NCBI GenBank assembly: GCA_036873755.1
Contig: JAVTVY010018943.1
Location: 1 to 64,000 of the forward strand
Direction of reading: 5' to 3'
Length of the DNA: 64,000 nt
From: Hanleya hanleyi
Taxonomy: Eukaryota > Mollusca > Polyplacophora > Lepidopleurida > Hanleyidae
Part shown: in pieces, positions 1 through 27,948 of the stretch
How positions within the stretch are numbered: the first letter of the stretch is position 1
How the letters are laid out: the number at the start of each line of letters is the position of its first letter
Notes under the pieces: generated by a model
The model's database searches: none
What the model saw: the letters and a program-made list of their open reading frames with translations, nothing else
Told to the model about the DNA's origin: nothing
Program-made: the position numbers and the translations under genes

Positions 1-248
1 TTACAATTCAAGAAGACTCTTGTCCAATCAGAGGCCACCATTTGCATTCGTCATATTCGTTCCTGTCCGTTAGATGTATTCTTGTCCAATCAGTACTCTT
101 CATTTCAGAAAGTTCCATCTTCGGCCATGTTCGCTTTGAACCGTTTATTCTAATCATCATCGGGCAGCCCAGGATACCGTTGAGGCAACATATCCTCAGA
201 TAGTTGCTTGTGCATTCTGAGTATCTATCAGTGCCTGGGTGAATACAT

Positions 249-1229
249 TCACCCGATGGGTTGGTCGGTCAGCTTGGTCACGAAGAACGCAACATTGGTC
301 ACACTGTCCACTGTCCACTTGGTGTTGGGGCGTTGCAACCGGGCCCATTCCAAGGGATCCACGGTGTTCAGTTTCTCCAGCATCGTCTCTAGCGACACTC
401 GGTTAATGATGGCAAACGGTTGGTCAAATACCTGGATGTTACTGCTCGGGTAAAAGTATCGGACTTGGACTGTCTCTTTATGCTGCAGCACATAACCAAA
501 CGCCAGATTCACTTTGAAGGCCGTAGTTTGATCTTTGAAGATGGCTTCTACGTAGCTACGTAGACGGGCGAGGTCGGTCAGTCGGAAATTGTAGATATCT
601 TGAATAGGGCGATGATTTTGTGGTGGAAACAGCAAAGCCGATCAGGCGTGGACCAATGGCGCTTTCGATAGATGTCACTCACTGGATGGGCGCCCTGTAA
701 GAGATCGCTAGGAACATTTATGGGCTCGTCCAGAAAATGTTCGATGTTGTCAGGCGTATGACCCGAAACCGTAACGGTGGGGTCCGGCTGGATATCCAGG
801 CTCTGAACTGTGGGTATAGACGGGCTCTCCTTCATCGCATCACCAGTGGCATTCGTCTCCCTGGGCTCGGGTTCTCCGTCATCGCATCACCAGTGGCGTT
901 CGTCTTCCCGGGCTCATCTTCACTGGGTCTGACCTTCCGCGGCTCCTCTTCAGTGGAAAGTTGTCGCCCAAACCGTAGAGACGGGGCATGAATCAAACGC
1001 TGATGGCGTCTTAACTGACTGCGTCGTTTGAAGAGTTGACCACAATCCTTACAGTGTTCCGTCGCGCCCCCGTGGAATGAGCGTTCGTGGCGCAGTAAAG
1101 GATCCTTCCGGGATTGAATGACCGTGCGCAGGTTGCAAGCATACCGAGCACGTTGTGGGTGGAGGCCTCGTGGTGTCGTAAATTATCTAGACGAGTAAAC
1201 AGCTTCTGGGCAAGTTAAAAAGTGAACAT
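249..1229 (-). pseudogene. Broken zinc-finger gene B' (left arm)
   Basis: This is the mirror copy of the intact gene at 4559-5479. The start codon is at 1229-1227, in the same CAACCACCAAG context, but the fourth codon of the intact copy has changed and a TAA stop follows within five codons. The zinc-finger region has further indels. The linker and C-terminal domain survive as open pieces: 835-578 encodes the acidic linker through NVPSDLLQGAHPVSDIYR, and 635-249 encodes the C-terminal domain from RPIQDIYNFR to the final QPIG. A frame change lies at about 610-640, and the acidic linker is partly duplicated. It is not a functional gene unless fragments are expressed separately. Confidence 0.85.
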
Positions 1230-1274
1230 CTTGGTGGTTGACAGAGTGTCTGATGAAACGTCCAGGCCGCTTCC

Positions 1275-1281
1275 CTTTATA
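1275..1281 (-). promoter_or_regulatory. TATA box of gene B'
   Basis: On the minus strand this reads TATAAAG, next to the GGAAGCGGCCTGGACG sequence that also follows the TATA box of the intact right-arm copy. It lies about 46-52 bases upstream of the former start codon. Confidence 0.55.
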
Positions 1282-1447
1282 GCACGCTAAAGCTGGTGAT
1301 CTATTTTTAGCACACTCAGTTCAACTATCCCTAAGTCCAGAGGGCCGAAAGCCGTGACATCTTCGTAACATCCGTGTCTCTCGGTCACCTACCGTCAACG
1401 ATCAACATGTAGACATATAGAGTATGTACGGCATGTTATGGTATTCA

Positions 1448-2363
1448 TCAGTGCATGAGTGACGCATTCAGCCGATGGGGGTGGTCGGTCAGCTTGGTAA
1501 CGAAAAACGTAACATTGGTCACACTCTCCACTGTCCACTTGGTGCTGGGGCGTTGTTGTTGGGCCCATTCCAAGGGATCCACGGTGTCCAGTTTCTCCAG
1601 CATCGTCTCTAGCGACACTCGGTTAATGATGGTAAACGGTTGGTCAAATACTCGGATGTTACTGCTCGGGTAAAAATATCGGACTTGGACTGTCTCTTTA
1701 TGCTGCAGCACATAACCAAACACCAGATTCAATTTGAAGGCCGTAGTTTGATCTTTGAAGATGGCTTCTACGTAGATACGTAGACGGGTGAGGTCGGTCA
1801 GTCGGAAATTGTGGATATCTTGAATAGGGCGATGACGGTAGAAACAGTGCCGGATCATGGGCCAATGGCGCCGATAAATGTCACTCACTGGATGGTCTTC
1901 GTGTAACAGATCGCTGGGAACATTTATGGCTTCGTCCACGAAGTGTACTTTACCTTCCACGTCGTACAAAATCTGGCCCAAGGTCTTGTCGTCGGAATTT
2001 GACTGTTGAATTAGGGCGACATCATCATCGGCCCTCGTGCGATGGGTGGGAGTTCCCCCTGTTTCGATATTGATGCCTACGGGCTCTTCTATCTGCAAAA
2101 CGTGGCTGCGGAACAGGGTGTCGTGTGCGTTGGTGTCGCAGCAACTGACTGGTCAGTTTGAAAAGCCGACCACATTCTTCGCATGGACGCTTGGGTACTT
2201 CATGGCGTGCACGTGTGTGGCGCTGTAAATGATCCGGGCGCTGAAACGACAGTGTACATATCGTACAGTTATACCGGGCGGTTCCTTCGTGCTTGGTAGC
2301 CTCATGGCGGCGCAAGTCATGCAGACGAGTGAATGATTTCGAGCACGTAGTACAAGTGAACAT
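1448..2363 (-). pseudogene. Frameshifted zinc-finger gene A' (left arm)
   Basis: This is the mirror copy of gene A at 3434-4306. The start at 2363 opens a frame with three C2H2 fingers (residues 4-25, 33-54 and 61-82). A one-base gain in an A run near 2090-2096 (four A on the plus strand versus three T on the right arm) shifts the frame, so the finger ORF ends in an unrelated tail at 2025. The C-terminal domain continues in another frame (2098-1448). A second one-base gain in a C run near 1478-1484 replaces the usual PIG end with a short extension. Both lesions are in homopolymers, so sequencing error or recent decay are both possible. Otherwise coding similarity to gene A is very high. Confidence 0.85.
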
Positions 2364-2408
2364 CTTGGTGGTTGACAGAGTGTCTGATGAAACGGCCAGA
2401 CCGCTTCC

Positions 2409-2416
2409 CTTTTATA
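2409..2416 (-). promoter_or_regulatory. TATA box of gene A'
   Basis: The minus strand reads GCTATAAAAGGGAAGCGG, the same core promoter as the other zinc-finger genes here. It lies about 46-53 bases upstream of the start codon at 2363. Confidence 0.65.
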
Positions 2417-2575
2417 GCACGCTAGCTGATATCATGTTCGGGCACCTCCGTGTCTCTTCGGATGTAAAAGTCCCCGGATGTAAAAGTGCCCGAATGTTTA
2501 CGAATGTTCCACCATTCCGGACTTCTATCAGGTCCATGTCCAGAAGCTCTCATGTCCTGCATGTGAATAGTCATA

Positions 2576-2860
2576 TTGTGTGTGTATGCATGTGTGTATG
2601 CGTGTGTGTGTGTGTGTGTGTGTGGGTATAGGCTTGTGTGTGTGCGTGCGTGTATGCAAGTGTGTGTATGCGTCTGTGTATGCGAGCGTTTGTGTGCGTA
2701 TGCAAATGTGTGTTTGCGTGTGTGTGTGTATGTGTGTGCGTGTGTGTGGGTAGGTGGTTGTGAGTGTGTGTGCGTGTGCGTGCATGTGCGTATGTATGTG
2801 TGTGTATGTATGCCTCTGTGTGTGTGTGTATGTGTGTGCTTGCGAGTGTGTTTCTTGGAT
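2576..2860 (+). repeat. Expanded TG-rich microsatellite
   Basis: This is an imperfect (TG)n tract with interspersed TGCG, TATG and TTTG. It accounts for the long His/Thr or Cys/Val open frames in this interval, which are not genes. The mirror position on the right arm (3165-3222) has only a short AC tract, so the expansion happened after the arms formed. Confidence 0.9.
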
Positions 2861-3380
2861 CGGAGCTCTTGGAGCTCAAAGCCTGTGGAGCTCAGAGATC
2901 GGAAGTGACATTTGCATATGACCTCTGTGAGGTCACTTCCGCTTTCGTTCACGTGACCGGAAGTGACCTTTGACCCCGGCGCGCGCGGTGTAAAGGTTTC
3001 CACCGCGGTGCGGTGGAAACCTTTGCGCGCCGGGGTCAAAGGTCACTTCCGGTCACGTGAACGAAAGCGGAAGTGACCTCACAGAGGTCATATGCAAATG
3101 TCACTTCCGACCTCAGAGCTCACACAGGCTTTGCAGCTCCAAGCAGCTCACATCCAAGAAACACACTCGCACACACACATACACACACACACACACGCAT
3201 ACACACATGCATACACACACAATATGACTATTCACATGCAGGACATGAGAGCTTCTGGACATGGACCTGATAGAAGTCCGGAATGGTGGAACATTCGTAA
3301 ACATTCGGGCACTTTACATCCGGGGACTTTTACATCCGAAGAGACACGGAAGTGCCCGAACATGATATCAGCTAGCGTGC

Positions 3381-3388
3381 TATAAAAG
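3381..3388 (+). promoter_or_regulatory. TATA box of gene A
   Basis: TATAAAAG sits within GTGCTATAAAAGGGAAGCGG, 46-53 bases before the ATG at 3434. A CATCAGATACTCTGTCAACC stretch follows and probably holds the initiator. The same block precedes gene B. Confidence 0.7.
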
Positions 3389-3433
3389 GGAAGCGGTCTG
3401 GCCGTTTCATCAGATACTCTGTCAACCACCAAG

Positions 3434-4306
3434 ATGTTCACTTGTACTACGTGCTCGAAATCATTCACTCGTCTGCACGACTTGCGCCGCCATGAGGCTA
3501 CCAAGCACGAAGGAACCGCCCGGTATAACTGTACGATATGTACACTGTCGTTTCAGCGCCCGGATCATTTACAGCGCCACACACGTGCACGCCATGAAGT
3601 ACCCAAGCGTCCATGCGAAGAATGTGGTCGGCTTTTCAAACTGACCAGTCAGTTGCTGAGACACCAACGCACACGACACCCTGTTCCGCAGCCACGTTTG
3701 CAGATAGAAGAGCCCGTAGGCATCAATATCGAAACAGGGGGAACTCCCACCCATCGCACGAGGGCCGATGATGATGTCGCCCTAATTCAACAGTCAAATT
3801 CCGACGACAAGACCTTGGGCCAGATTTTGTACGACGTGGAGGGCAAAGTACACTTCGTGGACGAAGTCATAAATGTTCCCAGCGATCTGTTACACGAAGA
3901 CCATCCAGTGAGTGACATTTATCGGCGCCATTGGCCCATGATCCGGCACTGTTTCTACTGTCATCGCCCTATTCAAGATATCTACAATTTCCGACTGACC
4001 GACCTCGCCCGTCTACGTAGCTACGTAGAAGCCATCTTCAAAGATCAAACTACGGCCTTCAAATTGAATCTGGCGTTTGGTTATGTGCTGCAGCATAAAG
4101 AGACAGTCCAAGTCCGATATTTTTACCCGAGCAGTAACATCCGGGTATTTGACCAACCGTTTACCATCATTAACCGAGTGTCGCTAGAGACGATGCTGGA
4201 GAAACTGGACACCGTGGATCCCTTGGAATGGGCCCAACAACAACGCCCCAACACCAAGTGGACAGTGGAGAGTGTGACCAATGTTACGTTTTCGTTACCA
4301 AGCTGA
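3434..4306 (+). CDS. C2H2 zinc-finger protein A with conserved C-terminal domain
   Basis: The 290-residue intronless ORF starts 46 bases after a TATA box in an ACCACCAAG-ATG context. Three C2H2 fingers of C-X2-C-X12-H-X4-H type occupy residues 4-25, 33-54 and 61-82. An acidic linker follows to about residue 130. The conserved domain runs from NVPSDLLHEDHPVSDIYRRH through FGYVLQHKETVQVRYFYPSS to KWTVESVTNVTF. Compared with gene B, one base is missing from a T run near 4288-4292, so it ends in SLPS instead of the usual FFVTKLTDxPIG. The C-terminal domain resembles, from memory, the N-terminal region of large invertebrate repeat-encoded proteins that also carry a protein-primed-type family B DNA polymerase. 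That likeness is not proven here. A DNA-binding role is inferred from the fingers alone. Confidence 0.75.
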   Translation: MFTCTTCSKSFTRLHDLRRHEATKHEGTARYNCTICTLSFQRPDHLQRHTRARHEVPKRPCEECGRLFKLTSQLLRHQRTRHPVPQPRLQIEEPVGINIETGGTPTHRTRADDDVALIQQSNSDDKTLGQILYDVEGKVHFVDEVINVPSDLLHEDHPVSDIYRRHWPMIRHCFYCHRPIQDIYNFRLTDLARLRSYVEAIFKDQTTAFKLNLAFGYVLQHKETVQVRYFYPSSNIRVFDQPFTIINRVSLETMLEKLDTVDPLEWAQQQRPNTKWTVESVTNVTFSLPS

Positions 4307-4505
4307 CCGACCACTCCCATCGGCTGAATGCGTCACTGATGAATACCTTAACATGCCGTACATACTCTATATGTCTACATGTTGATCGTTGACGGTACGG
4401 AGGTGACCGAAGAGACACGGATGTTACCGAAGATGTCGCGGCTCGGCCCTCGACTTGGGGATAGTTGAACTGAGTGTGCTAAAAATAGATCACCAGCTAG
4501 CGTGC

Positions 4506-4513
4506 TATAAAAG
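4506..4513 (+). promoter_or_regulatory. TATA box of gene B
   Basis: TATAAAAG lies 46-53 bases before the ATG at 4559, followed by GGAAGCGG and CATCAGACACTCTGTCAACC. The spacing is identical to gene A. Confidence 0.7.
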
Positions 4514-4558
4514 GGAAGCGGCCTGGACGTTTCATCAGACACTCTGTCAACCATCAAG

Positions 4559-5479
4559 ATGTTCACTTGCACAACTTGCCAGAAGCTGTTTACTCGTCTA
4601 GATAATTTACGACGCCACGAGGCCTCCACCCACAACGATGCTCGGTATACTTGTACAACCTGCGCACGGTCATTCAATCGGGAGGATCATTTACTGTGCC
4701 ACGAACGCTCATTCCACGAGGGCACGACGGAACAATGTAACGGTTGTGGTCAACTCTTCAAACGACGCAGTCAGTTGCTGCGACACCAACGGTTGATTCA
4801 TGCCCCGGTACCATGGCATGTGCGACAACTTCCTACTGAGGAGGAGCCGCGGAAGGTCAGATCTAGTGAAGATGAGCCCGGGGAGACGAATGCCACTGGT
4901 GATGCGATGAAGGAGAGCCCGTCTATACCCACAGTTCAGAGCCTGGATATCCAGCCGGACCCCATCGTTACGGTTTCGAGTCATACGCCTGACAACATCG
5001 AACATTTTCTGGACGAGCCCATAAATGTTCCTAGCGATCTCTTACAGGGCGCCCATCCAGTGAGTGACATCTATCGGCGCCATTGGTCCATGATACGGCA
5101 CTGTTTCCACCGTCATCGCCCTATTCAAGATATCTACAATTTCCGACTGACCGACCTCGCCTGTCTACGTAGCTACGTAGAAGCCATCTTCAAAGATCAA
5201 ACTACGGCCTTCAAATTGAATCTGGCGTTTGGTTATGTGCTGCAGCATAAAGAGGCAGTCCAAGTCCGATACTTTTACCCGAGCAGTAACATCCAGGTAT
5301 TTGACCAACCGTTTACCATCATTAACCGAGTGTCGCTAGAGACGATGCTGGAGAAACTGAACACCGTGGATCCCTTGGAATGGGCCCGGTTGCAACGCCC
5401 CAACACCAAGTGGACAGTGGACAGTGTGACCAATGTTACGTTCTTCGCGACCAAGCTGACCGACCAACCCATCGGGTGA
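4559..5479 (+). CDS. C2H2 zinc-finger protein B with conserved C-terminal domain (intact)
   Basis: This is the only fully intact member of the large zinc-finger family here: 306 residues, one exon, ATG in CAACCATCAAG-ATG. The fingers are C4-C7-H20-H25, C32-C35-H48-H53 and C60-C63-H76-H81, all C-X2-C-X12-H-X4-H. Residues of about 90-150 are a Glu/Pro/Ser/Thr-rich linker. The conserved domain begins at NVPSDLLQGAHPVSDIYRRH and runs through FGYVLQHKEAVQVRYFYPSS to the terminal TKLTDQPIG. It follows gene A in the same orientation, about 250 bases downstream. The consensus AATAAA lies about 100 bases after the stop. The compact promoter, lack of introns and palindromic setting suggest a mobile or virus-like origin rather than an ordinary host gene. 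Confidence 0.85.
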   Translation: MFTCTTCQKLFTRLDNLRRHEASTHNDARYTCTTCARSFNREDHLLCHERSFHEGTTEQCNGCGQLFKRRSQLLRHQRLIHAPVPWHVRQLPTEEEPRKVRSSEDEPGETNATGDAMKESPSIPTVQSLDIQPDPIVTVSSHTPDNIEHFLDEPINVPSDLLQGAHPVSDIYRRHWSMIRHCFHRHRPIQDIYNFRLTDLACLRSYVEAIFKDQTTAFKLNLAFGYVLQHKEAVQVRYFYPSSNIQVFDQPFTIINRVSLETMLEKLNTVDPLEWARLQRPNTKWTVDSVTNVTFFATKLTDQPIG

Positions 5480-5578
5480 ATGTATTCACCCAGGCACTGA
5501 TAGATACTCAGAATGCACAAGCAACTATCTGAGGATATGTTGCCTCAACGGTATCCTGGGCTGCCTGATGATGATTAG

Positions 5579-5584
5579 AATAAA
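5579..5584 (+). terminator. Poly(A) signal after gene B
   Basis: AATAAA lies 100 bases past the stop of gene B. It is mirrored on the left arm as TTTATT at 144-149, downstream of the broken B' copy. Confidence 0.6.
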
Positions 5585-5732
5585 CGGTTCAAAGCGAACA
5601 TGGCCGAAGATGGAACTTTCTGAAATGAAGACTTCTGATTGGACAAGAATACATCTAACGGACAGGAACGAATATGACAGATGCAAATGGTGGCCTCTGA
5701 TTGGACAAGTCTTCTTGAATTGTAACACCAAG

Positions 5733-6032
5733 TGGATAGTGGAGATAATGACCAATGTTGCGTTCTTCGTGGTTAAACTGACCACCACCTCCATCGGATG
5801 AAAGTATTCACCCATGCACTGATAGATACTCAGAATGCGCAAACAACTATCTGAGGATATGTTGCCTCAACGGTATCCTGGCCCGCCCGACGATGATTAG
5901 AATAAACGGTTCAGATGGCACTTTCTGAAATGGAGACTTCTGATTGGACAAGAATACATCTAACGGACAGGAACGAATATGACAGATGCAAATGGTGGCC
6001 TCTGATTGGACAAGAATCTTCTTGAATTGTAA
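5733..6032 (+). pseudogene. Degenerate third copy of the zinc-finger gene 3' end
   Basis: Bases 5733-5801 re-encode a worn version of the C-terminal end (NTKWIVEIMTNVAFF, ending TSIG and stop). They are followed by a second copy of the 3' flank, including AATAAA at about 5901 and the CTGATTGGACAAGAAT boxes. It is a direct partial duplication of 5405-5733, present only on the right arm. Confidence 0.8.
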
Positions 6033-6330
6033 ATATACCTAACGCGGCTCCTCCAGCGTGGGTATGATGTAACATTGGGGAGAATAAACTATATGAAAAA
6101 AACTTCTTGTTGTTGTTCTCTCATGTGTCATCCTTGTTGTTGTTGCTGTTGTTGTTCTCTCTCTGGTCTATATCATGGCGTTATGTTAGAGTGTTAAGGT
6201 GTAACGACGGGCGTTGACGGGCATCACTGCATTTCGAAGAATTGGTGACAATTCCATGGAATATCAGAGCTTCTGAGCTATTTCACCAGGGCGTCGAAGC
6301 ATTAAGAATGGTGTTGGTGGGCGTTGCTAC
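6033..6330. other. Outer flank shared with palindrome II
   Basis: The sequence GCTCCTCCAGCGTGGGTATG, an AATAAA at 6083-6088 and a (TTG)n-rich tract match the outer flank of palindrome II (10650-10760). Bases 6190-6310 match the centre-proximal right side of palindrome II (9985-10130), including ATCAGAGCTTCTGAGCTATT. So pieces of both element types are joined here. Confidence 0.7.
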
Positions 6331-6720
6331 AAGATGACACCTCACACGGTCCATTTGGACCGCGGATGGTCCATCTCTACACCAAATACCTTCCTGCACT
6401 GCCCCAAAAGGCCCACTTTCGCTACAACTTGTGCTAATGACGTCATCGATGACGTCACAGATGCTGTAAATATCCCTGAAATCGGGGTCTATACTCCGAG
6501 AGCTACAACATGACACATCCCATGACGCATTCGCAACGCGGATGGTCCATCTCTACACCAAATACCTTCCTGCACTGCCTAGCGGGACCCATACAGGGTC
6601 CAGTTTTCGACACTAGGTGACCACATCCCGATAAAATGGCCAGTTTTCGACACCGGATGTGCCGCCATCTTGAACATACGTGCCGCCATCTTGGATATGC
6701 CCCATAATGCACCGGGTCAA
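6330..6720. repeat. GC-richer repeat segment with internal direct repeats
   Basis: The phrase GGATGGTCCATCTCTACACC occurs twice (about 6364 and 6541), each time with flanking sequence. CCAGTTTTCGACAC also occurs twice near 6600-6655. No coding potential is convincing. Confidence 0.5.
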
Positions 6721-7870
6721 AATACTCGCTTCTGATTGGACGAGAGCTCCGTGGCGGATTTGAAAAACTCGCTTCTGATTGGACGAAGCTTCCGCTTCTG
6801 ATTCCTACCGCACACCCAACCCATCAGATGCCCCTTCACGAATGCTTCACATGGATACCTCACTCGACCCCATTGGACCATTAGGGACTCCCCTAGCTCC
6901 CGGATTTGAAATATTCGCTTCTGATTGGACGAGAGCTCCGCATTGCGTCTGCGCATGCGCAGAATGATATTCCTACCGCACACCCAACCCATCAGATGCC
7001 CCTTCACGAATGCTTCACATGGATACCTCACTCGACCCCATTGAACCATTAGGGACTCCCCTAGCTCCAACACGGCTATTTCCATACCCTTGGGCCACCG
7101 CGCATGCGCAGAATGACGCTATGTCAACCCACTAGTCGAGTCAGATGCCCCTTCACATAAGCTTCACTTTGATACCTCACTCGATCCCATTGGACCATTA
7201 TTGGCTTCGCTAGCTCCAAAACGGCTATTTCCATACCCTTGGGCCACCGCGCATGCGCAGAATGGTAACAACGGCCGAGCCACTAGTCCAGTCAGATGCC
7301 CCTTCACCTAGGCTTTACTTTGATACCTCATACGACCCCATTGGACCATTTGTGGCTCCCCTAGCTCCCAACACGGCTATTTCCATACCCTTGGGCCACC
7401 GCGCATGCGCAGAATGACGCTAGTTCAAACCCACTGGTCCAGTCAGATGCCCCCTCACATAGGCTTCACTTTAAAACCTCATTCGACCCCACTGGACCAG
7501 TAGTAACTCCCCTAGCTCCAAAACGGCTATTTCCATACCCTTGGGCCACCGCGCATGCGCAGAATGACGCTAGTTCAACCCCACACCCAGCCCATCAGAT
7601 GTCCCCTCGCCTAGGCTTCACATTGATACCTCATATGACCCCACTGGACCAGTAGTAACTCCCCTAGCTCCAAAACGGCTATTTCCATACCCTTGGGCCA
7701 CCGCGCATGCGCAGAATGACGCTAGTTCAACCCCACACCCAGCCCATCAGATGCCCCTTCACCTAAGCTTCACATTGATACCTCACTCGACCCCATTGGA
7801 CCAGTAGTAACTCCCCTAGCTCCAACACGGCTATGTCCATACCCTTAGGCTACACGAGTTGTCTCCCTTG
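6720..7870. repeat. Tandem array of units of about 150 bp with NRF-1-like and CCAAT motifs
   Basis: Each unit contains a CCCATTGGACCA stretch, CCCCTAGCTCC, AACGGCTATTTCCATACCC, TTGGGCCACC, GCGCATGCGCAGAATG and CATCAGATGCCCC. The GCGCATGCGCAGAATG core recurs at about 6950, 7100, 7250, 7400, 7551 and 7705, giving a period of 150 bp. The core matches the palindromic NRF-1 consensus TGCGCATGCGCA. The left edge adds three CTGATTGGAC boxes that are also found beside the zinc-finger genes. Open frames across it are repeat by-products. Confidence 0.85.
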
Positions 7871-8727
7871 CGTCAATGTGTGCAGATGGCGCTACGGTCG
7901 ACGCCGTGATATGGAAAGGGCATCCCCACACCATCCTGGAGCTGCCATTTTGTTTGTTGTTTTCTTGCGGAGATACACGGGACAATAAACACTCGACCCT
8001 AGGGTGGTACAGATGCTAGACTGATCCTATTAACATGGTACAACACCTATAGATTATGTTTATTACTAGGACGTCAGCGAAATCCTAATGCTTCACTTTG
8101 ATACCTCACTCGACACAATCGGACCCCCATATCCCATATAGGTATTTTCCCGGATTTTTCGATAAAGGCCGAGTTCCGGTTTTTTTCAGGAAAAATTTTA
8201 CATGCACTAACCCAGCCATCAAATACCCCTTCACCTAGGCTTCACTTTGATACCTCACTCGACTCCATTGGACCATTAGGGACTCCCCTACATCCCAAAA
8301 CGGCTATTTTCATACCCTTCGGCCACCGCGCATGCGCAGAAGGCCGATATGTCAACCCCTCACCAGCCCATTAGATGCCCCTTCACCTAAGCTTCACTTT
8401 GATACCTCACTCGACCCAATCGGACCATTTTATCTAGGGACTACTTTTTCCGCGGAAGCTTTTTCCCGAGACCGAATCACCGCCAAAACCGCGGCCAAAC
8501 CGCATCACCGCGGATGAATACATCCTGAATACATCCCCTGCAGCAATTGGAACTCTCCTGGATTGGAGGTAGCTTTTGGTCTTTCTGCCGGAACTATGCA
8601 CTCATTGACCTTTTGTGACCCTCCCGTGACCTCCCTAATATGCAAATTTCTGAGGTCAATAGACCCCCAAATACGCTTTGTATACTACTGACACCTGGTC
8701 GAGTTACCTGTCTGAGCGTGTGCGGTG
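7870..8727. repeat. Degenerate continuation of the 150-bp array
   Basis: Isolated or worn units recur at about 8084-8150, 8217-8350 (again with CCGCGCATGCGCAGAA) and 8355-8440. They are separated by unique sequence such as a stretch reading GACCTTTTGTGACCTC. No gene was found. Confidence 0.6.
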
Positions 8728-9342
8728 ATGAGGAGGAGGAGGAGGAGGAGGAGCAGGTGAAGGAGGAGTGAGTGAGTAAGTGAGTCGTGCCCAACGCTCG
8801 TGAGGCGTGCCCAACGCCCGCCTTAACCCATTGACGCACTAACGATGGTGAGTGAGTGAGTGTGAGTGTGAGTGAGTGTGAGTGAGTGAGTGATTGAGTG
8901 AATGGGGCGTGCCCAACTCCCATGAGGCGTGCTCAACGCCGGTCTAACGCATCGACGCACTAACGATGGTAAGTGACTGAGTGTGAGTGAGTGAGTGAGT
9001 GATTATATAAGTTCGTTTGTAAACCATTAGCCTCAGTCTGTAACCACCCCTTGCGTCTTAACGCCAAGAAGTAGACATATGAAAAAACAACAGCAACAAG
9101 GATGTCAGGTCAATCATTTTATTATCCGCTCCAGCACATCATACCCACGCTGGTGGGAGCCGCGTTGGGTATGATTACAATTGTCGTAGGCTCTTGTCCA
9201 ATCGGACGCCGCCATTTCAGAAAGTTCCATTTTCGGCCAAGTTCGCTCTGATCCGTTTGACCCAAGCGTCTTCCGGCAGTCCAGTACTGGAGCTTCGAGC
9301 TCTTACTTCTCCCATTGTTAGGCAGGGAAGGGAGATGGAAGG

Positions 9343-9656
9343 TCTCCTAGACACTGGGATCAATCTCCATCGGCTCTTCAATTCGGGGCGGCGGATGGAC
9401 CTCCATGGGTTCTTCAATTCGAAGATGCATCTCCATGGGAACGGAAATATCCGTTCTCGAGAGTGGCGAGCGTATCCGTGTATGACACTTTTCGTGACGT
9501 CGGAATTGACTGGGATGGGAATTGACTGGGATGCTCAAAGACTATATCACACTCTATAGCACATGTATGCGTGGGTACTTCGTGGCGTGCACGTGTGTGA
9601 CGACGTAAACTGTCCAGGCGATGAAAGGGCTTCGAGCAAGTCGTACACGTGAACAT
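9343..9656 (-). pseudogene. Small zinc-finger gene, left arm of palindrome II (frameshifted)
   Basis: The ATG at 9656 opens MFTCTTCSKPFHRLDSLRRH, one full C2H2 finger (C4, C7, H20, H25) followed by a second C-X-C start. The frame then drifts into sequence unlike the right-arm copy. The expected C-terminus (PMEMHLRIEEPMEV and an acidic Pro-rich end) continues in another frame at 9538-9347. A second duplicated GGGATTGACTGGGATG segment near 9505-9530 accompanies the break. It is a mirror of the intact 86-residue gene at 10206. Confidence 0.75.
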
Positions 9657-9800
9657 AGTGGTAGAGTGTTCACTGAATGGAACGTCAACTGTGCACGTCT
9701 TTAGAATACGCTTGCTTTCATGGACAGTAACGCCCGTCAACGCCTAGCTTAACGCTTGAACGCCCTGGTAAAATAGCTCAGAAGCTCTGATTTTCTAGAT

Positions 9801-10062
9801 ACGCGTCACTTCCGATGACGTCACTTTCATCAAGGATCCGGGGCCAATGGTCAAAATATGTACGTGTGATTGGATGTTTGATAATGCGTGAAGGCGTTAG
9901 GATATGGAGTTAAGGCGTTAGGATAAGGTGTTATGGCGTAAAGATAGGGCGTTAAGGCGTTGAGACGGGCGTTAAGGCGTAAGGATAGGGTGTTAAGGTG
10001 TAACGACGGGCGTTGACGGGCGTCACTGCATGTCGATGAATTAGTGGCAAATCCATGGAATA
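9801..10062. repeat. Spacer of palindrome II with GGCGTTAAGGCG short repeats
   Basis: Between the arms lies an ATF/CRE-like GATGACGTCAC near 9815. About ten variants of a 12-15 base unit, TTAAGGCGTTAGGATA, follow (9884-10010). The same motif recurs in the outer flanks (6180-6210 and 9728-9770). No ORF of note is present. Confidence 0.7.
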
Positions 10063-10205
10063 TCTAGAAAATCAGAGCTTCTGAGCTATTTCACCAGGGC
10101 GTTGAATCGTTATGCTAGGCGTTGGCGGGCATTACTGTCCATGAAAACAAGCGTATCTTAAAGACGCGCACAGTTGACGTTCCATTCAGCAGACACTCTA
10201 CCACG

Positions 10206-10466
10206 ATGTCCACGTGTACGACTTGCTCGAAGCCCTTTCATCGCCTGGACAGTATACATCGTCACACACGTGCACTCCACGGAGTACGCACGCATACATG
10301 TGCAGACTGTGATATAGTCCAAAGTGTCATACACGGATCACGCTCGCCACTCTCGAGACCGGATATTTCAGTTCCCATGGAGATGCATCTTCAAATTGAA
10401 GAACCCATAGAGATGGATCCGCCGCCCCGAATTGAAGAGCCGACGGAGATTGATCCCATTGTCTAG
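10206..10466 (+). CDS. Small single-finger zinc protein (palindrome II)
   Basis: The 86-residue ORF begins in the family context (AGACACTCTACCACG-ATG). Residues 4-25 form one C2H2 finger (C-X2-C-X12-H-X4-H) close to finger 1 of genes A and B. A second C-X2-C pair at 32 and 35 lacks its histidines. The rest is short and acidic with repeated IEEPxEMD/IEEPTEID motifs, and the large C-terminal domain of genes A and B is absent. A poly(A) signal is at 10693-10698. No clear TATA box is visible upstream, unlike genes A and B. It may be a decayed relative or a small regulator; I cannot tell which. Confidence 0.6.
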   Translation: MSTCTTCSKPFHRLDSIHRHTRALHGVRTHTCADCDIVQSVIHGSRSPLSRPDISVPMEMHLQIEEPIEMDPPPRIEEPTEIDPIV

Positions 10467-10692
10467 GAGCCCTTCCATCTCCCTTCCCTGCCTAACAATG
10501 GGAGAAGTAAGAGCTCGGAGCTCCAGTATCCCTGACTGCCGGAAGACGCTTAGGACAAACGGATCAGAGAGCGAACTTGGCCGAAAACTGAACTTTCTGA
10601 AATGGCGGCTTCTGATTGGACAAGAGCCTACGACAATTGTAAACATACCCAACGCGTCCCCCCAAGCGTGGGTATGATGTGCTGGAGGGGAT

Positions 10693-10698
10693 AATAAA
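10693..10698 (+). terminator. Poly(A) signal after the small zinc-finger gene
   Basis: AATAAA follows the GCGTGGGTATGATGTGCTGG block. It is mirrored by TTTATT at 9118-9123 on the left arm. Confidence 0.55.
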
Positions 10699-10941
10699 AT
10701 GATTTACCTGTCATCCTTGTTGTATTTGTTCTCTCATCTGTCTACATCATGGCGTTAATACGCGAGGGTGGTTACAGACTGCGGCTAATGGTTTTCAAAC
10801 GACCTTATATAACTACTCACTCACACTCACCCACTCACACTCCATCGTTAGTGCGTCAATGCGTTAATACTGGCGTTAGGCACGCCTCACGGGCATTGGG
10901 CACGCCTCACTTACTCACTGACTCCTCCTCCTCCTCCTCCA

Positions 10942-11719
10942 CACATGCACACACAGATAACTCTATCAGGCAGCCGCATGGAAAAAAAGACCATATCTCC
11001 CCCAAACGCACTTCATTGCACCTCCGAAACTCCCTTTTTTCTACTACTCCCGAATGATCTATAAATAGAACAGGGGTTTTCCCAGAAAATTCCCCAAAGA
11101 ATTAACCCTGACAATTAGAGCGATGGCCTAGGAAACAGGGGTTTCCCAGCAAAATCTGATCACATTTCTGGCATAAGCCTATGGTGCTGCTGAGGATAGG
11201 TTAAGGCGTTTAGGCCATTCGGTTAATATTCCTTGAATAAAAGTTCTGAAACTTTCAAAAATGAAATATATTACAATTCTCCACAAATATATAAAATTCT
11301 AGTACGTATTAATTTTGTTCCTTTACCTCCCTTGCATGTTATCCTTATGAGACCCTCACACCAGTCAGGTGGGGGAACAGCCGCCGGTGACCTGTCATCA
11401 TATTACCTCAGTGGCAATATTCTGCAAAATGAAGAGACGCTTATCTGCGAAGGAAACAAAAATGCATGTGCGAAAATCTGAGACCTCCCAGACAACTGAG
11501 ATAGTAATTCTAGGCCCGTACTTGAAATAAGTGATTCGTGTTAGAAGGATTAGACCATGGATAGACTTAAACACTTTCTCGCAGTATTTGATGCGCCGTA
11601 AAGGCATAGATTTATCGTTTATTATCCAGATAAGCGTATCCTTGAGTATCAAATTCTGGGAGGGAATGATTTGATACTCGATCGCATTATCATTATCGAG
11701 TTATGTACTAGGTATACAA
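10942..11719. other. No recognisable gene
   Basis: This is a transition from the GC-rich palindrome zone to AT-rich sequence. CAGGGGTTTTCCCAG and CAGGGGTTTCCCAG recur at about 11070 and 11138. Short frames here show no family signature. Confidence 0.5.
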
Positions 11720-18961: not shown

Positions 18962-20630
18962 AGACCCAAACACCTGAAGGCTAGGAAAGCCTCTGGAGGG
19001 GTGGCCATATTAGTGAGGGATGAGATCTCTCAAGGCATCAGCCCGATATTGAACAATAACTGTGAATCTGCAGTGTGGGTGAAACTTTGTAAGCATAGAT
19101 TTTGTATGGAAAGGGATGTCTATGTTTGTGTATGCTACATACCCCCAGAAAATTCCTCGTTTGGCAGAATAAATAGCATGGATCTCATGGACAAGCTTGA
19201 GGAGGATATGACTGTTCAGTGGCAGGGGAGACATAGTGATATAAGGCGATCTTAATGCCCGTACGGGTACCCTACCTGATTATATTCCAGATGATGATGA
19301 TGTTAATCATGTACCCTTGCCTGACTTTTATATAAGTGATTCAACTGTCAATAGGAATTCAAAGGATGACTGCATTAAAAATATTGGTAGAAAATTAACT
19401 GATATTTGTAGATCCCAGCAATGCAGGATACTGAATGGCCGTACATTGGGTGACCTCTTTGGAGATTTTACATGTGTAAAAGAATTTGGTAATAGTGTAG
19501 TGGACTACATTATTGTTAACACCCAACTTAAACAACAAGTCTTGGAGATGATAGTTCACCCCCTAACTTGTATCTCTGATCACAAAGCGGTATCTGTGAA
19601 ACTTAAAACCGGTCTTTGGGGCTCTCGGCCATCATATTTACCCTCATCAGCCTCTGCAAGTCATCCATTACCCCCAAAATATATTTGGGATTCTGACACA
19701 AGCACAAAATTTATCAAAAGCTTGTTGCTGTTACCTATTTCTGATACAATCAATAAATTATATCAATCGGAAACTGATCTGGATATGTACACATCAATGG
19801 TTAATGACCTACTCCTAAAAGCAGCGGATGATAGTATGGAGAAGATCAATAAAACCAGTACATGTAAACCGAAACATCTTAATAAACCCTGGTATGACAA
19901 TGATTGTAAAGTATTGCATAAAGAGCTAGTAAGTCTCAACAATGCCTATAACCGAAATGATACAAACCCCAGTATCAAATCCAAATTTTTCAAGAAACAC
20001 CGAGAATATCGAACAAAAACAAGAAAGTGTAGATCATCATATCGTCAGAGCTTGTTGAAGAAGTTAAATGCCTCTTCGTACAAAGACTCATCGTCCTGCT
20101 GGAATACTTTAAAAAAACTTAAACAAGATAATAATAATAAATCTGATAAAGTGGATATTAACACATGGTTTGAACATTACAAAACCTTACATAGTCCTCA
20201 TACTGCGCATATCCAGCAGGAGAGAAAATCAGAGGTGGAAGTAGAGCTGTCAAATTGGGAAAGCCAACCCACACACTCTCCATCGCTAAACACCCCTATT
20301 AACGAGAAGGAAATCATAGAAGCTGTTAAAACCCTTAAGAAGGGGAAATCCTGCGGACTCGACTCCATAAGTAATGAGATGATCCAAACTGCATTCCCAT
20401 ATATCAAGGACATCTTGCTATTGCTCTTCAACAAAGTGCTAGCTTTAGGGCAATTCCCAAAATCGTGGGCAACGGGCCTGATAGTTCCAATCCACAAAAG
20501 TGGTAACACCATCGATACCAATAATTATCGTGGTATAACTTTGAATAGCTGTATGGAGAAAATATTCTGCTCTGTACTTAATACTAGAATTACTGATTTT
20601 GCAGCAGAATATGGACTTATGCCGGTGCTA

Positions 20631-20830
20631 GGGGCCGTGTGGTCATATCATCCAAGTTGCCACATGAACAGGTACAATAAAAGCGTACCTGAGATACAAC
20701 ACATATCACGAATCGTTAGATTCCTGGTATGGCTTTAGAATAGGTTAACCAGAAGACTATTCTGTGAAGTCATGTGACGCAGTCAGTATGTCGGCACCTC
20801 TTCCCACTTCCCTCATATGTGTTGTAATTA
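20631..20830 (+). mobile_element. T2 tail inserted in LINE 1 reverse transcriptase
   Basis: GCCGGTGCTAGGGGCCGTGT through GTTGTAATTATC matches 38.7-38.9 and 54.2-54.4 kb closely. It splits the RT between FAAEYGL and SQLGFKKGC. TTAT or ATTAT at the two edges may be the target duplication. Confidence 0.8.
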
Positions 20831-22882
20831 TCTCAAAGTCTCAGTTAGGTTTTAAAAAGGGCTGTAGGACCACAGACCATATATTTGTAATGAAAACCTT
20901 AATAGATAAATACACTGGTAAGAAAAATAAGCTTCATGCTTGCTTCGTTGATTTCAGCAAAGCTTTTGACTCTGTCTGGCATGATGCCCTCTTCTTAAAA
21001 CTTCAGAAAGCTGGGATAACCGGTAACATATATAATGTTATAAAAAAACATGTATTGTCACAGCCAGTCTAGGGTTAAATCTGCAGCATGTTTGAGTGAT
21101 AGCTTCCCTATCACCAGAGGTGTTCATCAGGGTAATGTGTTAAGTCCGATACTTTTTAACATCTATATCAATGATCTGCTGGATGGCCTAAATGGTTGCA
21201 AGTCCCCCACCTTATGGGGCGAGTCTGTGCATTGCCTCGCATATGCTGATGACATTGTTCTGTTATCTCTGGATAGGGTAGACCTACAAGCGAAACTTCA
21301 TCACCTCGGTCTGTATATTAATAAGTGGGACCTATCTGTGAATATTAAAAAGACAAAAATTGTTACTTTTGGTTCCAACAAACCAGCTGGTTATAATTTC
21401 CATATTAATGGTAACCCAGTCGAGAGTGTTAATAAATACAAGTATCTTGGAATAATCTTACATAGTAATGGCTACTTCAATCAAGCAATTAGCAACCTAT
21501 CTTGTGCAGCCAAAAAAGCCATGTTCTCACTGAGGAATGCTGTGAACCCAAATGAATTGAATATCAAATTAGCATGTAACTTATTTGACTGTATTATACA
21601 ACCCATTCTGTTATATGGGGCAGAAGTTTGGCTTGGTTATGTTAACAAAGGAAGTATGTCTGTTGAATCAACCCTATTGAAGGATAACGATGTGGAAAGG
21701 GTCCATATTAAGTACTGTAAGCAAATACTTGGCGTACATACAAAAGCAGCCAACATGGCGGTTCTTGGTGAGCTCGGGAGAGCCCCACATTAAGTTGGCT
21801 GCTATAGTTAACTGTATTAATTTCTATCTACATATTGTAGCATCTAGCCCAACTTCATTGCTATATAAAGCCTATCTAGAACAAGTTGAGGCAGAAAGAG
21901 TGACTAATTGTAGTAATTGGGTGAGTTTTATTAAGAAGATCTTAGCAGATGTTGGTTGTGTATATCTCTGGGACAATCAAGGTTGTATTTACCCTAAATC
22001 TACATTGAAATTTATCAAAAAGAGAATCTTTGACATTTTTGTGTCCAGTTGGAGAGAGAAAATTACTAAATTTAGTAAATTAGAGACCTACTGCAGTCTC
22101 AAATACAAATTGCAGGCTGAAAATTGCATCTTCTCAATTCCCAATAGGCATCACCGAGTATCATTGACACAGTTTCGGATAAGTGCGCATAAACTACAAA
22201 TCGAAAGGGGGCGATATCAAAAAGACATCCCCAGAGATCAAAGACTCTGTACTTTTTGCCAAGTGCTCGAAGATGAGCAACATTTTCTTTTGGAATGTAA
22301 AAGATTCAAAACTGAGAGAGATATCTTGTTCAACACCATACAACCTCTTATGCCCAGTGATACATATACTCAATTATCAAATGCCCATTTACTTATTATG
22401 TTAATGACCTCGAAATCGCAGCCAATAATAAATGCCGTGGCAAAATTTGTCCATGTATGTTCGATAAAGCTGTAATAACGCATTGCCGACTCGCCATTAT
22501 TCTTACCCATATCACTGGGGTCTCCCCTGTCAATGAAGTTGTTGGCTTCCAAGCCCCACAACCCTGTTATGTTCTGTATGTATATGTATACACCATGTTT
22601 GTTTGTTTCTTGTAATTGTTAGTCTACGGGCACAATAGTGCAATGAAGTATCCATGATCCTATGTAACCCTATGTATCAGTGAATAGTTTTTGATCGTAT
22701 TGTTTTTATGTATTGCTTGTACTTTTTATATGTCCTGTGTGTATTGTTTTCTATGTATTGCTTGTATATTTTATATGTCCTGTACGTTCGCTTTTATGTG
22801 GTGCCTTTAGCCTTCGGGCAAAAACGAGCAATAAACTATCTATCTATCTATCATGAAGTGTGACACTTCTGGACAGTAAGGG

Positions 22883-24035
22883 AGTTATGGAAGACTGTTT
22901 GAGACATAACCACAGAATAATTGTCTGTGGTAAATATTTTTGTTGCAACAATATTGAGATGCCATGTAGTGGTATGAATTGAATAATGCGCGTTATTGTT
23001 TTGTGCAGAATACTTTTGTCATTACTGATCGAGTTTTCCCGTGTGAATCCTTTCTCTGACATCAAAGTTTTTCTTGCAATGAAATGGTATGTTAATTCTG
23101 TTTTGGAGTAAGTATGTTCTTATTGGTGTAGGCTGGAACGTAGAGTCTGATACTCTATAATCTGAAGAATTCGCATTTCTTGCAGATAGGATTCAAATGC
23201 CTAACATTGCCATTCGCAACCACTTGAATGTTACCAGAATTATTGCCCGTTTGAATGCCACCTCTTGACAGCGTTGAATATGACAATTGATGTGTCAGTG
23301 AATGACATTTTGACGTGTATTTCTTTAACCATGGATTTGCTTGGGACCCTTATCGCGCTTTTGTATATCCTTTGCATATGTTGTAATCTGTATGGCTATT
23401 GTTCTCAAATTTTGTTTCACTCGGTGACATTGTAATGCATGACCTGCAACTAGACAGTGCTCTGGAGACTGTGCTACGCGCCTATGTTTTTCCATCTTTG
23501 TATACTCCTTTGTAATGTTTTTGTTTTTGCTTTTTCTTTCTTTTGTCACTCTTGCCAGTGGGTGTGCGTTTTGGTGCACGGAACGTACTCTCACTTGAGG
23601 CCAAGTTTTGGTGTCTTGGCGACTGATGAACTGATCATTCACACGGCTTCTATCACTATTTCTTGTCTTCTTATTATTGTATTTTTCTTTTGCTTATTTC
23701 TTGTTTCACTGTTCTGACATTATCTTGCATGTAGGTTGGAGTTTTGACATTTTGATACAGATAAATGTTATTTGTTTTCATTTTCATGAACATGTAATGT
23801 GTTGATAAACTATTTTGGATTTGAAGCTGATGTATGAATTTTCCAGCAATTGTTTTGATATTGTGTTTTGAGCGCATTGTTTTGACATGTCCACACTTGT
23901 CAGTGACTGGCACGAGTCTCACATACCTAGAATACTTTCATTGAACTGATAGTAAATATGGCCTTATGACTTTACGCAATGAACATGGACTACGGTAATT
24001 GAATAAATTGTTTCCGGTATTCGACCGATATTTCT
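22883..24035. other. No recognisable gene
   Basis: T-rich AT sequence. Short frames on either strand lack domains. It ends at the target site of LINE 2. Confidence 0.5.
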
Positions 24036-24357
24036 TTTTTTTCTCTTGAATAAAATCTTTATTCTTCTATTCCCTTACAATCTTTCTTCCAAGTCGGGAA
24101 TTCTTAGAAGTTTTAATATTTCTGTATACATAACAATATATCACATTTAAAGCTTTTAAAGCTTCGTTTTCAGTGTCAACATTCTTTTGCTTATATTTAC
24201 TTTCTGATATTCCAGCACCTGGAATCTTAATAAAATTTCATTTTTGAATAAGGAGAATATATCAACATATTTGCTTTGTTGGTTTCTTATACAGTATCCC
24301 TTGTTGTAAATACTAAAACCTATTACGGTAAGTACAAAATTTAAATCGTAATTGGAT

Positions 24358-27300
24358 TTATCCATAGTTGTATCTATGACAATATGTTTCAGTCAGTTTC
24401 TCTTGGAAACCAATATTGCTCAACAATGAGCGTATTTTCCCCCAGAATCCAGCAAGATTTGAACATGTCATGAAAAAATGACTGTAATCGTCAAGTGTAT
24501 CACATATATTACAATTAGGATTGTCAAATATGCGCCACTTATGCAAGTTTTTTCCACATACAAGTATTCCATGTAGCAGCTTAACTCTGAATTGCTTTAA
24601 TATATTTTCGTTTAACTTGCACATTATAAATTCATAGATTTCTGTCCAGTATTCGTCCGTCACCGGAGTATTCAATACTTTTGACCACATTTGTGGGATA
24701 AATGGCGACACGAATTTTTTGCTAATGAGAGTTTGGTATATTTTTGCATTGCTTAAAACAATTGAGTTATTACTCTGGGATTGATAGTCAACATAGATAT
24801 GCTCGTTTGTACTAACATTATTATGTGAAAGCACATCTAACCATACATGCGGTATACATGATTTTAATAGCAGAAATTCTGAGATCCAGTTTCGTTTGTT
24901 ATTCAGCTTTTCCAAGATCACACTTTCCCTAAAATTGCCCGTCCCATCAAGAATATCCTTTATAGTGATAATGCCACTGTCTATCCATGTTTTAAAAAAC
25001 AATGTTTTCCCTTTGTGCTTAATGAATTTATTTCCCCAGATAATTTGGTCTTCCATTTCTCTGTAAATGATTGGTGGGTCTACTTGCCCGCCGCCACACT
25101 TGATCCAGGATGACAGAATTTCTTTATAAAATATGGGAAGCGTACATGCGTTTGGCAACGCATTAACGTCGTCCAGGTTCATTTTGAAAACCAAGAAGTC
25201 ATTTCCATAGCGATTCAAGTAAAAGCTAGGTAATACTTTCCAGTTTGTTACGTCACCATCTAGTAGACGTTTGACCCATCTGAATCGCAGTACGTGAAAA
25301 TAACTTTCTATATCTGGCATTCTAAGACCGCCTTCCTTAAAATTGCCTATTAGTGTCATTCTTTTTATTTTATCTTTTTTTCCATCCCATATATATGAAT
25401 ATAATATGCTGTTCAGTCTCTTGATTATATCATCTGGCACTGGTGTTACGGCCGCGATGCAGGTGAACATTGGTATGATCAGGGATTTTATTATCTGTAT
25501 TTTGCCAATTTTTGTGAGATTTCTTTTTCTCCAACAATCTATCAACTTTTGTGCTTTTTCCAACTTGTTGTTCCAGTTCAATATTTTACATTTATTTTTA
25601 TCATGACCAAAATATACGCCTAGAGCTTTAATTGGAACATTTTCCCACTTGATGTCACCTGGTTGTCGCCTACATTTCCGCTGCGCACCAAGCCAAAGCC
25701 CTTCCGTTTTGTTTTTGTTCAATACCAGACCGGAAACTCTTCCGAAACTCTGTACTAAGTCCAGGGCACGGTGTACCTCCCTTTCCGACCGTACAAATAC
25801 TGTTGTATCGTCTGCTAACTGGGATATTTTTAGATTCCATTTTGTTCCACTTAAGTTAACTTCAATTCCATTTATGCCGTTTCGTATATTATTAGCTAAA
25901 ACCTCAGCAGCTATTACAAACAGTAACGCCGATAGTGGACAGCCTTGACGGATTCCCCTATTTGGCTTAAAATCTTTGGTTTTCCAGCCGTTATTCAATA
26001 TACAGCTGTTAACATCAGAATACATTGCTTTAACCCAGCTAATAAAAGAATTACCAAAGCCAAAGTATTCCATTGTTTTTATCATAAACTCCCATTCTAT
26101 AGTATCAAAGGCTTTCTGAAAATCTAGGAAAAGAATAGCGCCCTCGATTTTAAAGTTGTCCGCATATTAGATGATGTCCTGAATTTGCCGAATATTATAG
26201 CCGATATATCTATTTTTTATGTATCCTGATTGATCTGTGCTGATAATCTTGGGTAGCACTTGCTGCAATCGCAACGCCAGCGACCGAGCGGCTATTTTAT
26301 AGTCGACATTTAATAATGTTATTGGCCTCCAGTTATCTAGAGATAGCGGGTTACCTTTTTTATACAACAGCGAAATTAAACCCCCGCGTTGGCTGCCAGA
26401 AAATGTACCATTCGTATATCCTTCATTTAATGACTGCACAACATAAATACCTATTTGTTCCCCAAAACACTTGTAGAATTCTACAGATAACCCATCCATT
26501 CCGGGACATTTGTTCAATTTCATCCCAGCAAGGGCTTCAGTACATTCCTCAAAGGTCAGCAAACCTCACATTTGAGAGATTCTGTTTCGTTTAGTATTTT
26601 ATCAAATTTTGTATTGTCCAGATATTTTTGAATGTCAGATAATTCCGGTTGAGATGACGTGTACAAGTTTTTATAGTAATCAACTAGAATATCGTTAACT
26701 ATGAATTGGTCACTTATGACATTTCCTTCGCCATCTTCCAGCGTTTTAATAATCTTTTTTGATTGTTTATTCTTTTCGAGGTTAATAAAATATTTAGTAT
26801 TTTTCTCTCCTTTTTCAATCCATTCAGCTCTTGCACGTATCTGTGCACCATTTGCTTCCTGTGTGTAGATGTTATTCAATTTTAATTCAACGCATTTAAT
26901 CTCATCTTCTAGTGACTCAGTATTTCTATTTTCCGAATTGTCGTATTCATGCAATTGTTTTTCCAAAACGTAGATTTTTGACTTACGTTTTCTTGCTTTT
27001 TGTTTAGAGTAACTATGATGGCTGTTTCTCTAATCGATATTTTCAATATCTCCCACTTTAGCCGAACGTCTAAAGCGCTATTGTCCTCTGATTCTGCAAA
27101 CTTATTTATTTCAGAGCCAATTAGTTCAATAAATTGCACGTCTTGCAGGAGGCTGTTGTTCATTTTCCAGTATCCTGGCCCTTTTGTTTGGTCACTTATA
27201 TGTATTTTAATCGAAACAGCCTGATGGTCAGTATAGCTAATCCGCACCGGCCTTATGTCTGCGGCTGTAATGTTACCAACAGCAAGAGAACTCACCAACC

Positions 27301-27948
27301 AAAAGTCAATCCTACTAGCTTCTCTGTTACCACGACGTCTCCAGGTAAACTGTGTGGTTTTAGAGTGGTTTGTTCTCCATACATCAATCAGACTTTGTGA
27401 TTTCAAACTTTGTGATTTCAAAAGTTTACCCAAACTTGCGACTGGTTTTCTAAGACGTGACCCGTTCGATTTCCTATCAACTGTAGGATTTAATACATCG
27501 TTGTAATCACCACCGATAAGTATCAGGCCCAATGCCTTTTCCGATATCATTTCGTTTAACTTTTTAAAGAAAATATTTCTATGTTTTTGGTCGTTTGGTG
27601 CGTAAACGTTGACCAACGTGTAAATGTTGCTTTCAATCTTGACGTTTAGTAAAATTACTCTACCGTCATTGTCATTATGAACGTCTATAATTTCCATGGC
27701 TAGCTCTTTTTTCCACATAATGGAAACACCTCTACTTGACGATGTGCCAAAAGAGTGGCGAATATATAAATCGAATTCTTTTTCGATTACTTTTTCCATT
27801 TCTGTTGTAAAATGGGTTTCTTGTATGAAAGCTATTTCTGCTTTCTGGTGTTTTATCCATGAAATAAGTCTATTTCTCTTATCTTTATTAGGCCCTGGGC
27901 GTTTAACGACACCAGGTGGATAATGTTCTTATTTCGTACATTCACCAT
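24358..27948 (-). pseudogene. LINE 2 ORF2: endonuclease-reverse transcriptase, broken
   Basis: The probable ATG is at 27948, giving MVNVRNKNIIHLVSLN. A frame change follows near 27890, then the endonuclease with IAFIQETHF (minus frame upstream of 27799), LILIGGDYNDVLNPTVDR and ISYTDHQAVSIKI. A frameshift near 26940 and another near 26560 precede the RT start (LNKCPGMDGLSVEFYK, DNWRPITLLNVDYKI). An in-frame TAA at about 26167 interrupts just before FLDFQKAFD. The frame 26085-24358 has GIRQGCPLSALLF, the catalytic box as LADD (25818-25807) rather than YADD, and a C-terminal CNICDTLDDYSHFFMTC zinc knuckle. Three frameshifts and one stop mean it is inactive. Confidence 0.85.

Follow-up and report, generated by a model that had tools for sequence, protein, structure and literature searches.

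The window analyzed here, a 64,000-base stretch of DNA from the mollusc Hanleya hanleyi (bases 1–64000 of contig JAVTVY010018943.1, starting at contig base 1; genome 2.48 Gb), opens with one copy of a palindromic mobile element that has Polinton/Maverick ends, an assignment to type that is well supported. The element is Polinton-derived because it has AGTAGT/ACTACT ends, is flanked by 6-bp duplications, and carries genes descended from a Polinton-type polymerase, each joining zinc fingers to a domain, D1, from the polymerase N-terminus (ZnF-D1 genes). We consider it rather probable that it is a non-autonomous, palindromic Polinton/Maverick satellite, encoding its own stand-alone terminal protein and obtaining polymerase and integrase in trans. 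A sequence-only reading had described a virus-like or self-replicating element rather than host DNA. A virus-like mobile element it is, on the grounds just given and by its many copies, but "self-replicating" does not hold, no polymerase or integrase open reading frame (ORF) being found in the copies examined.

Ends and Copy Number

Two copies were read through both flanks, one of 9,888 bp between CACGTG and CACGTG (contig C2425) and one of 12,714 bp between GATCTA and GATCTA (C27393), and both (2/2) show a perfect 6-bp target site duplication (TSD). Both start AGTAGTATACAA and finish TTGTATACTACT, that is, AGTAGT...ACTACT. Excerpts of the published description of Mavericks give ends of 5′-(AGT)2//(ACT)2-3′ or (AG)3//(CT)3 with 6-bp duplications, and the ends of these two copies agree with this motif. 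The end 18-mer AGTAGTATACAAAGCGTA occurs at 716 + 694 = 1,410 exact places genome-wide (0 in the control), and among the first 100 places listed there are 11 convergent end pairs, spaced 3.9–20.7 kb apart (median 13.4 kb). When seven ends are aligned, bases 1–18 are invariant, about 12 mostly variable bases follow, and then comes a near-invariant block that contains half-sites TGACCT/AGGTCA and, in 6/7 ends, the octamer ATTTGCAT. The octamer is much denser within the element than beyond it (0.81/kb in window positions 1–8692 vs. 0.06/kb in 12000–64000), and the block, by its octamer and half-sites, has what we take to be a likeness to the adenovirus origin. A second end-like sequence, AGTAGTATAAAAAGCGCAAGTC, lies within the arms of six loci (L010, L013, L014, L015, L016, and L023), preceded in every copy seen by TAAGATGTAATCTACTTCACA; this inner sequence is perhaps an older element end retained inside the arm.

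A Palindrome Larger Than the Window Copy

Inverted-repeat comparison of window positions 1–6032 confirmed inverted arms centered on 2992–3024, the biggest arm blocks being 597 and 596 nt at 98% identity and 387 nt at 99%, with other in-register blocks less alike (e.g., 243 nt at 86%). A palindrome of about 3 kb per arm had been proposed for this region. The inversion stands and the extent does not: the left arm is incomplete because the window begins at contig base 1, the right arm extends to 8689 by comparison with other copies and with the two contigs read through their flanks, and position 6032 simply mirrors the point at which the contig start cuts the left arm short. The palindrome is thus real, but the piece first described is a contig-truncated part of a larger element. 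Beyond 6032 the right arm contains tandem repeats. The element's G+C content is 46–50% (three copies) vs. 38.2% in window positions 12001–64000. Near the center, a left-arm GT-type repeat (2577–2838, 262 bp) exceeds its right-arm AC partner (3161–3221).

Other copies are palindromic as well. Twenty other loci were fetched at 5–10 kb each, drawn from the loci most similar to one arm and hence a biased sample, since choice by best match to one query favors little-changed arms. Thirteen of the 20 carry both arms as core blocks >1.8 kb, three are partial palindromes cut by contig ends (L014, L017, and L021), and two are palindromic on the outside with one inner arm gone (L011 and L022); the contig of L027 ends just beyond the center, and L013 has one arm only. 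With 13/20 two-armed loci and 5 partial palindromes, the proposed inverted structure has not turned out to be peculiar to the window, as it would be if all other copies were single genes without inversion. A longer simple repeat, at first suspected in L014, was not borne out.

Intact centers are numerous. The pattern AAAGGTTTCCACC-N(0-12)-GGTGGAAACCTTT occurs at 1,237 places genome-wide and at 0 in the control, so the center singled out by the sequence-only reading is assembled intact many times over, although this count, like that of promoters below, may take in related palindrome families. Both center-flanking motifs are present in only 5/21 loci; loss of the center, which this could have indicated, was dropped, since the genome-wide count shows the sample to be unrepresentative. 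An asymmetry of about 8 bases is common to the 4 readable centers, and loop length varies genome-wide, with the zero-loop form in 27/50 places listed (counted by hand); a single founder palindrome for all copies is only suggested. Palindromes with loops of zero or a few bases thus persist at >1,200 places in one assembly. In six contigs (C28308, C13011, C13930, C40918, C1397, and C1998) the first base lies no more than a few hundred bases from the center, and palindrome centers seem to break assembly.

Two Zinc-Finger Genes per Arm

Both ORFs of the right arm open with MFTC and continue with three C2H2-like fingers, from which a linker leads on to a C-terminal domain that matches no Pfam family. 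Gene 1 is 304 amino acids (aa) long in 20/32 arm pieces containing its start, and gene 2 is 306 aa in 17/34. TATAAAA lies about 55 bp upstream of the ATG in both window genes, and both TATA boxes are present in 31/34 arm pieces, 2 of the other 3 spanning gene 2 only. The promoter 20-mer GTGCTATAAAAGGGAAGCGG occurs at 3,412 + 3,655 = 7,067 exact places (0 in the control), and on contigs C464 and C580 promoters run minus, minus, plus, plus, the order expected for two outward genes per arm. Two outward-facing intronless genes per arm, each with its own TATA box and poly(A) signal, had been described from the window; this layout applies to its right arm (ORFs of 290 and 306 aa) but not to its left, where the genes are broken (longest pieces 112, 136, and 85 aa), and each gene has its TATA box, whereas a poly(A) signal follows gene 2 only, with no AATAAA/ATTAAA between genes 1 and 2.

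We surveyed ATG ORFs of ≥100 aa in the two full copies (C2425 and C27393) and the window copy. These are ZnF-D1 genes and pieces of them (190 and 244 aa; 136 aa by eye), plus five others without a Pfam match above the cut-off (weak matches, E 0.005–0.08). No polymerase, retroviral-type integrase, capsid, or transposase ORF was found among them; instead of a complete protein-primed polymerase B (pPolB), the copies examined encode the N-terminal domain alone.

Polymerase Origin of the D1 Domain and Selection

The C-terminal domain is shared with polymerases resident in the genome. A protein search with gene 1 returned 3 proteins, of which P0001 and P0002 have the D1 domain in common, and a search with P0002 gave 547 matches (best 120 listed). 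A further protein, P0114, combines fingers, D1, and PF03175 (DNA_pol_B_2) in a single chain. The region of P0002 after the domain has at least 155 matches in the genome, with ORFs open up to 1,382 aa (150 of 5,704 candidates scored), and the same D1 domain lies upstream in 10/10 polymerase-ORF loci fetched (translated match). For PF03175 itself the genome yields at least 164 matches, with 84 of 1,723 candidates scored, against none in 14 control genomes; host ORF pieces that carry D1 and are cut have no PF03175 match of their own. Identity of D1 to genes 1 and 2 is 52–59% in the nearest host lineage and about 40–44% in L033 and L042, and in a tree of the domain the two genes group with host lineage L034–L041 (support 0.982), then with L042 (0.790). 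L033 also has fingers upstream of its D1 domain.

In 41/44 relatives in alignment A2 the domain is followed by a D-N-x-C-[LF]-F-R box (variant D-R-K-C-L-F-R in L034–L041), which we take to be the OTU cysteine box. Gene 2 stops at PIG, where the host polymerase ORF continues; since this is just before the OTU-like box, gene 2 would encode fingers and a stand-alone D1. Relatives in viral contigs were not confirmed, either among 11 pattern matches of the protein search or among 102 matches to alignment A2, and the end 18-mer occurs there 0 times.

The protein was under selection, as seen both within the element and against the host. When gene 1 of the window is compared with gene 2, the finger region shows a synonymous divergence (dS) of about 2 and a nonsynonymous-to-synonymous ratio (dN/dS) of 0.14, and D1 a dS of 0.11 and dN/dS of 0.39; the fingers are therefore old and constrained and the domain recently homogenized. 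Between D1 and the host polymerase, the proportion of synonymous differences (pS) is 0.77–0.82, near saturation, and that of nonsynonymous differences (pN) 0.24–0.25.

A Candidate Terminal Protein

From models, sections of PMC11071308 interpret the N-terminus of polinton pPolB as a terminal-protein domain (D1) and describe it as four strands (at times one more) and two helices with a Ser or Tyr in the loop preceding the last strand and a Pro or Gly near. After D1 they place an OTU-like protease, by which it is probably released through cleavage, the adenovirus terminal protein being a separate gene; Thr is among the linking residues listed for terminal proteins, and Ser/Tyr are those given for D1 (PMC11071308). 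The AlphaFold2 (AF2) model of gene 2 has strands at 190–196, 216–230, 236–239, 252–254 (short), and 285–304, helices at 200–213, 257–269, and 272–278, and a loop, QRPNTKW, at 279–285. Its mean confidence (predicted local distance difference test, pLDDT) is 63.5, with 72–89 per block over 201–306 and lower blocks of 59 at 241–250 and 59 at 191–200. In this model the order of strands and helices, compared as order rather than by superposition, appears to fit the published D1 description, and an alcoholic residue, T283, stands between the last helix and the last strand with a Pro nearby. The motif Q-R-[PL]-[ND]-[ST]-x-W is present in 45/46 aligned rows; its [ST] position is Ser in 43 rows and Thr in both genes of the window. 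Thr also occupies this candidate priming position at host locus L036. A fold search against solved structures matched mostly zinc fingers, with no terminal-protein entry and no D1 match above noise, an absence that is no evidence against the terminal-protein reading. A PDB profile search with A3 gave zinc-finger proteins only among the 60 of 262 matches listed, and the model of P0114 (pLDDT 44.9) is poor except for the fingers and D1 and does not confirm an OTU-like fold. On the model and the retained residue, D1 may prime replication at the element ends.

Divergence between Arms

Mean divergence is 0.0163 between the arms of one copy (14 copies) and 0.0163 between copies (547 pairs), equal values of the kind that a burst from a source with near-equal arms would leave. 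In 9/14 copies the two arms do not differ statistically in private substitutions, and in five they differ significantly (the window, L010, L012, L019, and L028); the window has 26.5/kb in the left arm vs. 7.1/kb in the right (P = 9e-9). Because transitions outnumber transversions about 2:1 in the most changed arms, the substitutions look like mutations and not random errors. Arms as unequal as those of the window are not expected from one insertion. Recombination or the assembler may have combined arms from different copies. Among four unequal copies whose outer arms were tested, L010, L012, and L028 have no colinear match and L019 is wholly colinear; in the nine equal copies outer colinear cover ranges from 0.00 (L020 and L024, for which core limits were approximate) to 1.00. 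Estimating arm age from divergence was rejected, given equal means within and between copies and unequal arms in five, and the scattered arm differences earlier taken as a sign of age do not simply record it in the window.

Proposed Mechanism and Alternatives

If the element is a satellite with a stand-alone terminal protein, the fingers of ZnF-D1 would recognize the end block, D1 would prime copying at the ends, and the pPolB of a resident full Polinton would extend the primed strand. The displaced palindromic strand could then fold back on itself and be completed, and a Polinton integrase would insert the linear DNA, making the 6-bp duplication. Snap-back copying of one Polinton end would be the simplest route to the palindrome itself. 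No autonomous partner with the same ends was found among the polymerase and end matches listed, which coincide in one contig only and never in one element.

The main rival accepts the same Polinton-derived satellite and makes ZnF-D1 a competitor or repressor that, instead of priming, occupies Polinton ends or polymerase and modulates or shuts down the helper. A truncated polymerase piece with fingers does look dominant-negative, and polymerase ORFs abound in the genome. We nonetheless consider this role unlikely: the alcoholic residue is retained in the presumed priming loop (S/T in 45/46 rows), and two tandem genes per arm with thousands of exact promoter copies suggest a gain for the element itself. 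Less likely still is capture of a finger-D1 gene by a foldback DNA transposon (Galileo/FB type) of a different superfamily. The arms of such a transposon would fill the element, as they nearly do in C27393 (a 5,954-bp arm block at 98.5% identity within 12,714 bp), and inner repeats, modular outer arms, and many copies also suit it, but the 6-bp duplication and the (AGT)2/(ACT)2 ends match Mavericks and the gene itself is Polinton-derived. Inverted repeats assembled from hairpin reads or collapsed copies would explain why several contigs begin near the center and why arms are unequal in 5/14 copies; such an artefact may lie behind individual mismatched copies, including the window's left arm, but is very improbable as a general account, given two copies between different flanks with matching TSDs, point differences between arms, and 1,237 assembled centers. 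Equally improbable is a host zinc-finger family amplified as palindromes whose mobility was lost, which intact ORFs with TATA boxes and purifying selection would allow but which the terminal motif, target duplications, and near-identical copies dispersed over contigs contradict. An integrated herpes-like virus was dropped once the ends, duplications, and gene origin indicated Polintons.

Relation to Known Systems

In foldback transposons (Galileo, FB), as here, the element is filled by very long inverted repeats, but their ends and transposase family are different. Virophages depend on another element's machinery, a dependence probably shared here, but virophages and Polinton-like viruses retain capsid genes, and none was seen here. 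A deletion derivative of the kalilo linear plasmid, a defective protein-primed replicon, reportedly forms hairpin and duplex DNA; judging by the paper's title, it parallels the putative snap-back step, though unlike our element it is a mitochondrial plasmid. With Polintons/Mavericks the element shares the (AGT)2/(ACT)2 ends, 6-bp duplications, and genes from the polymerase N-terminus; unlike them it has no polymerase, integrase, or capsid ORF in the copies surveyed and is one whole palindrome with stand-alone ZnF-D1 genes. The stand-alone terminal proteins of adenovirus and phage PRD1, as described in sections of PMC11071308, resemble the predicted protein in an alcoholic residue before the last strand, in being encoded separately from the polymerase and, as far as the order in the model shows, in the succession of strands and helices, but the protein here is fused to three C2H2-like fingers and is closest in sequence to a Polinton-type polymerase.

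We found no literature joining Polintons, zinc fingers, DNA polymerase, and molluscs. Tentatively, the element could represent a parasite class of protein-primed elements: palindromic satellites with two copies of one replication end, whose own finger-guided terminal protein draws a helper polymerase. Such a reading would add a satellite class to Polintons and, if true, would mean that terminal protein and polymerase had come apart independently within a transposon family, in the way proposed for adenoviruses. It is an evolutionary question how the two came to be separate in adenoviruses, and the Polinton N-terminus owes its assigned priming role to structure modelling; a high-copy element that has kept D1 by itself, under selection, offers a natural experiment in which this role becomes testable.

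Features of the Window

Table 1. Coordinates of the element, its genes, and adjoining features in the window
Feature	Position	Strand	Remarks
Palindromic element, window copy	1..8689	.	Left arm truncated where contig begins; right terminus ...ACTACT at 8684-8689
Left arm, partial	1..2991	-	Genes broken; many private substitutions
Palindrome center, hairpin AAAGGTTTCCACC..GGTGGAAACCTTT	2992..3024	.	1,237 places genome-wide, control 0
Right arm, complete	3025..8689	+	
TATA box of gene 1	3381..3387	+	Promoter 20-mer at 7,067 exact places genome-wide, control 0
Gene 1, three C2H2 fingers and polymerase N-terminal (D1/terminal-protein-like) domain	3434..4306	+	290 aa
TATA box of gene 2	4506..4512	+	
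Gene 2, architecture of gene 1, ends ..QPIG where polymerase ORF continues	4559..5479	+	306 aa
Codon of T283 (candidate priming residue), in QRPNTKW, the model's loop joining last helix to last strand	5405..5407	+	
AATAAA past gene 2	5579..5584	+	Other AATAAA/ATTAAA at 5901, 6083
Outer-arm tandem repeats	6326..7853	+	Vary from copy to copy
Conserved end block: AGTAGTATACAAAGCGTA, ~12 variable bases, TTGACCTCA.AAATTTGCATATTAGGGAGGTCA	8600..8689	-	Candidate origin
GACACC, right copy of presumed 6-bp duplication	8690..8695	+	Left copy lies off contig
Older, smaller palindrome with decayed finger gene in arms	8690..11157	.	Right end of the big element inside its left arm (by eye)

The smaller palindrome hosts the insertion site of the big element, and a 4-kb query covering it gave at least 236 matches (40 of 19,865 first-look candidates scored). 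Elsewhere in the window, several ORFs on both strands at 19548–28778 look by eye like reverse transcriptase and endonuclease of the long interspersed element (LINE) type. A 5S rRNA-like sequence at 36601–36705 (54.7 bits) could be a 5S-derived repeat, and a nearby ORF at 35045–36001 resembles, by eye, a retroelement piece.

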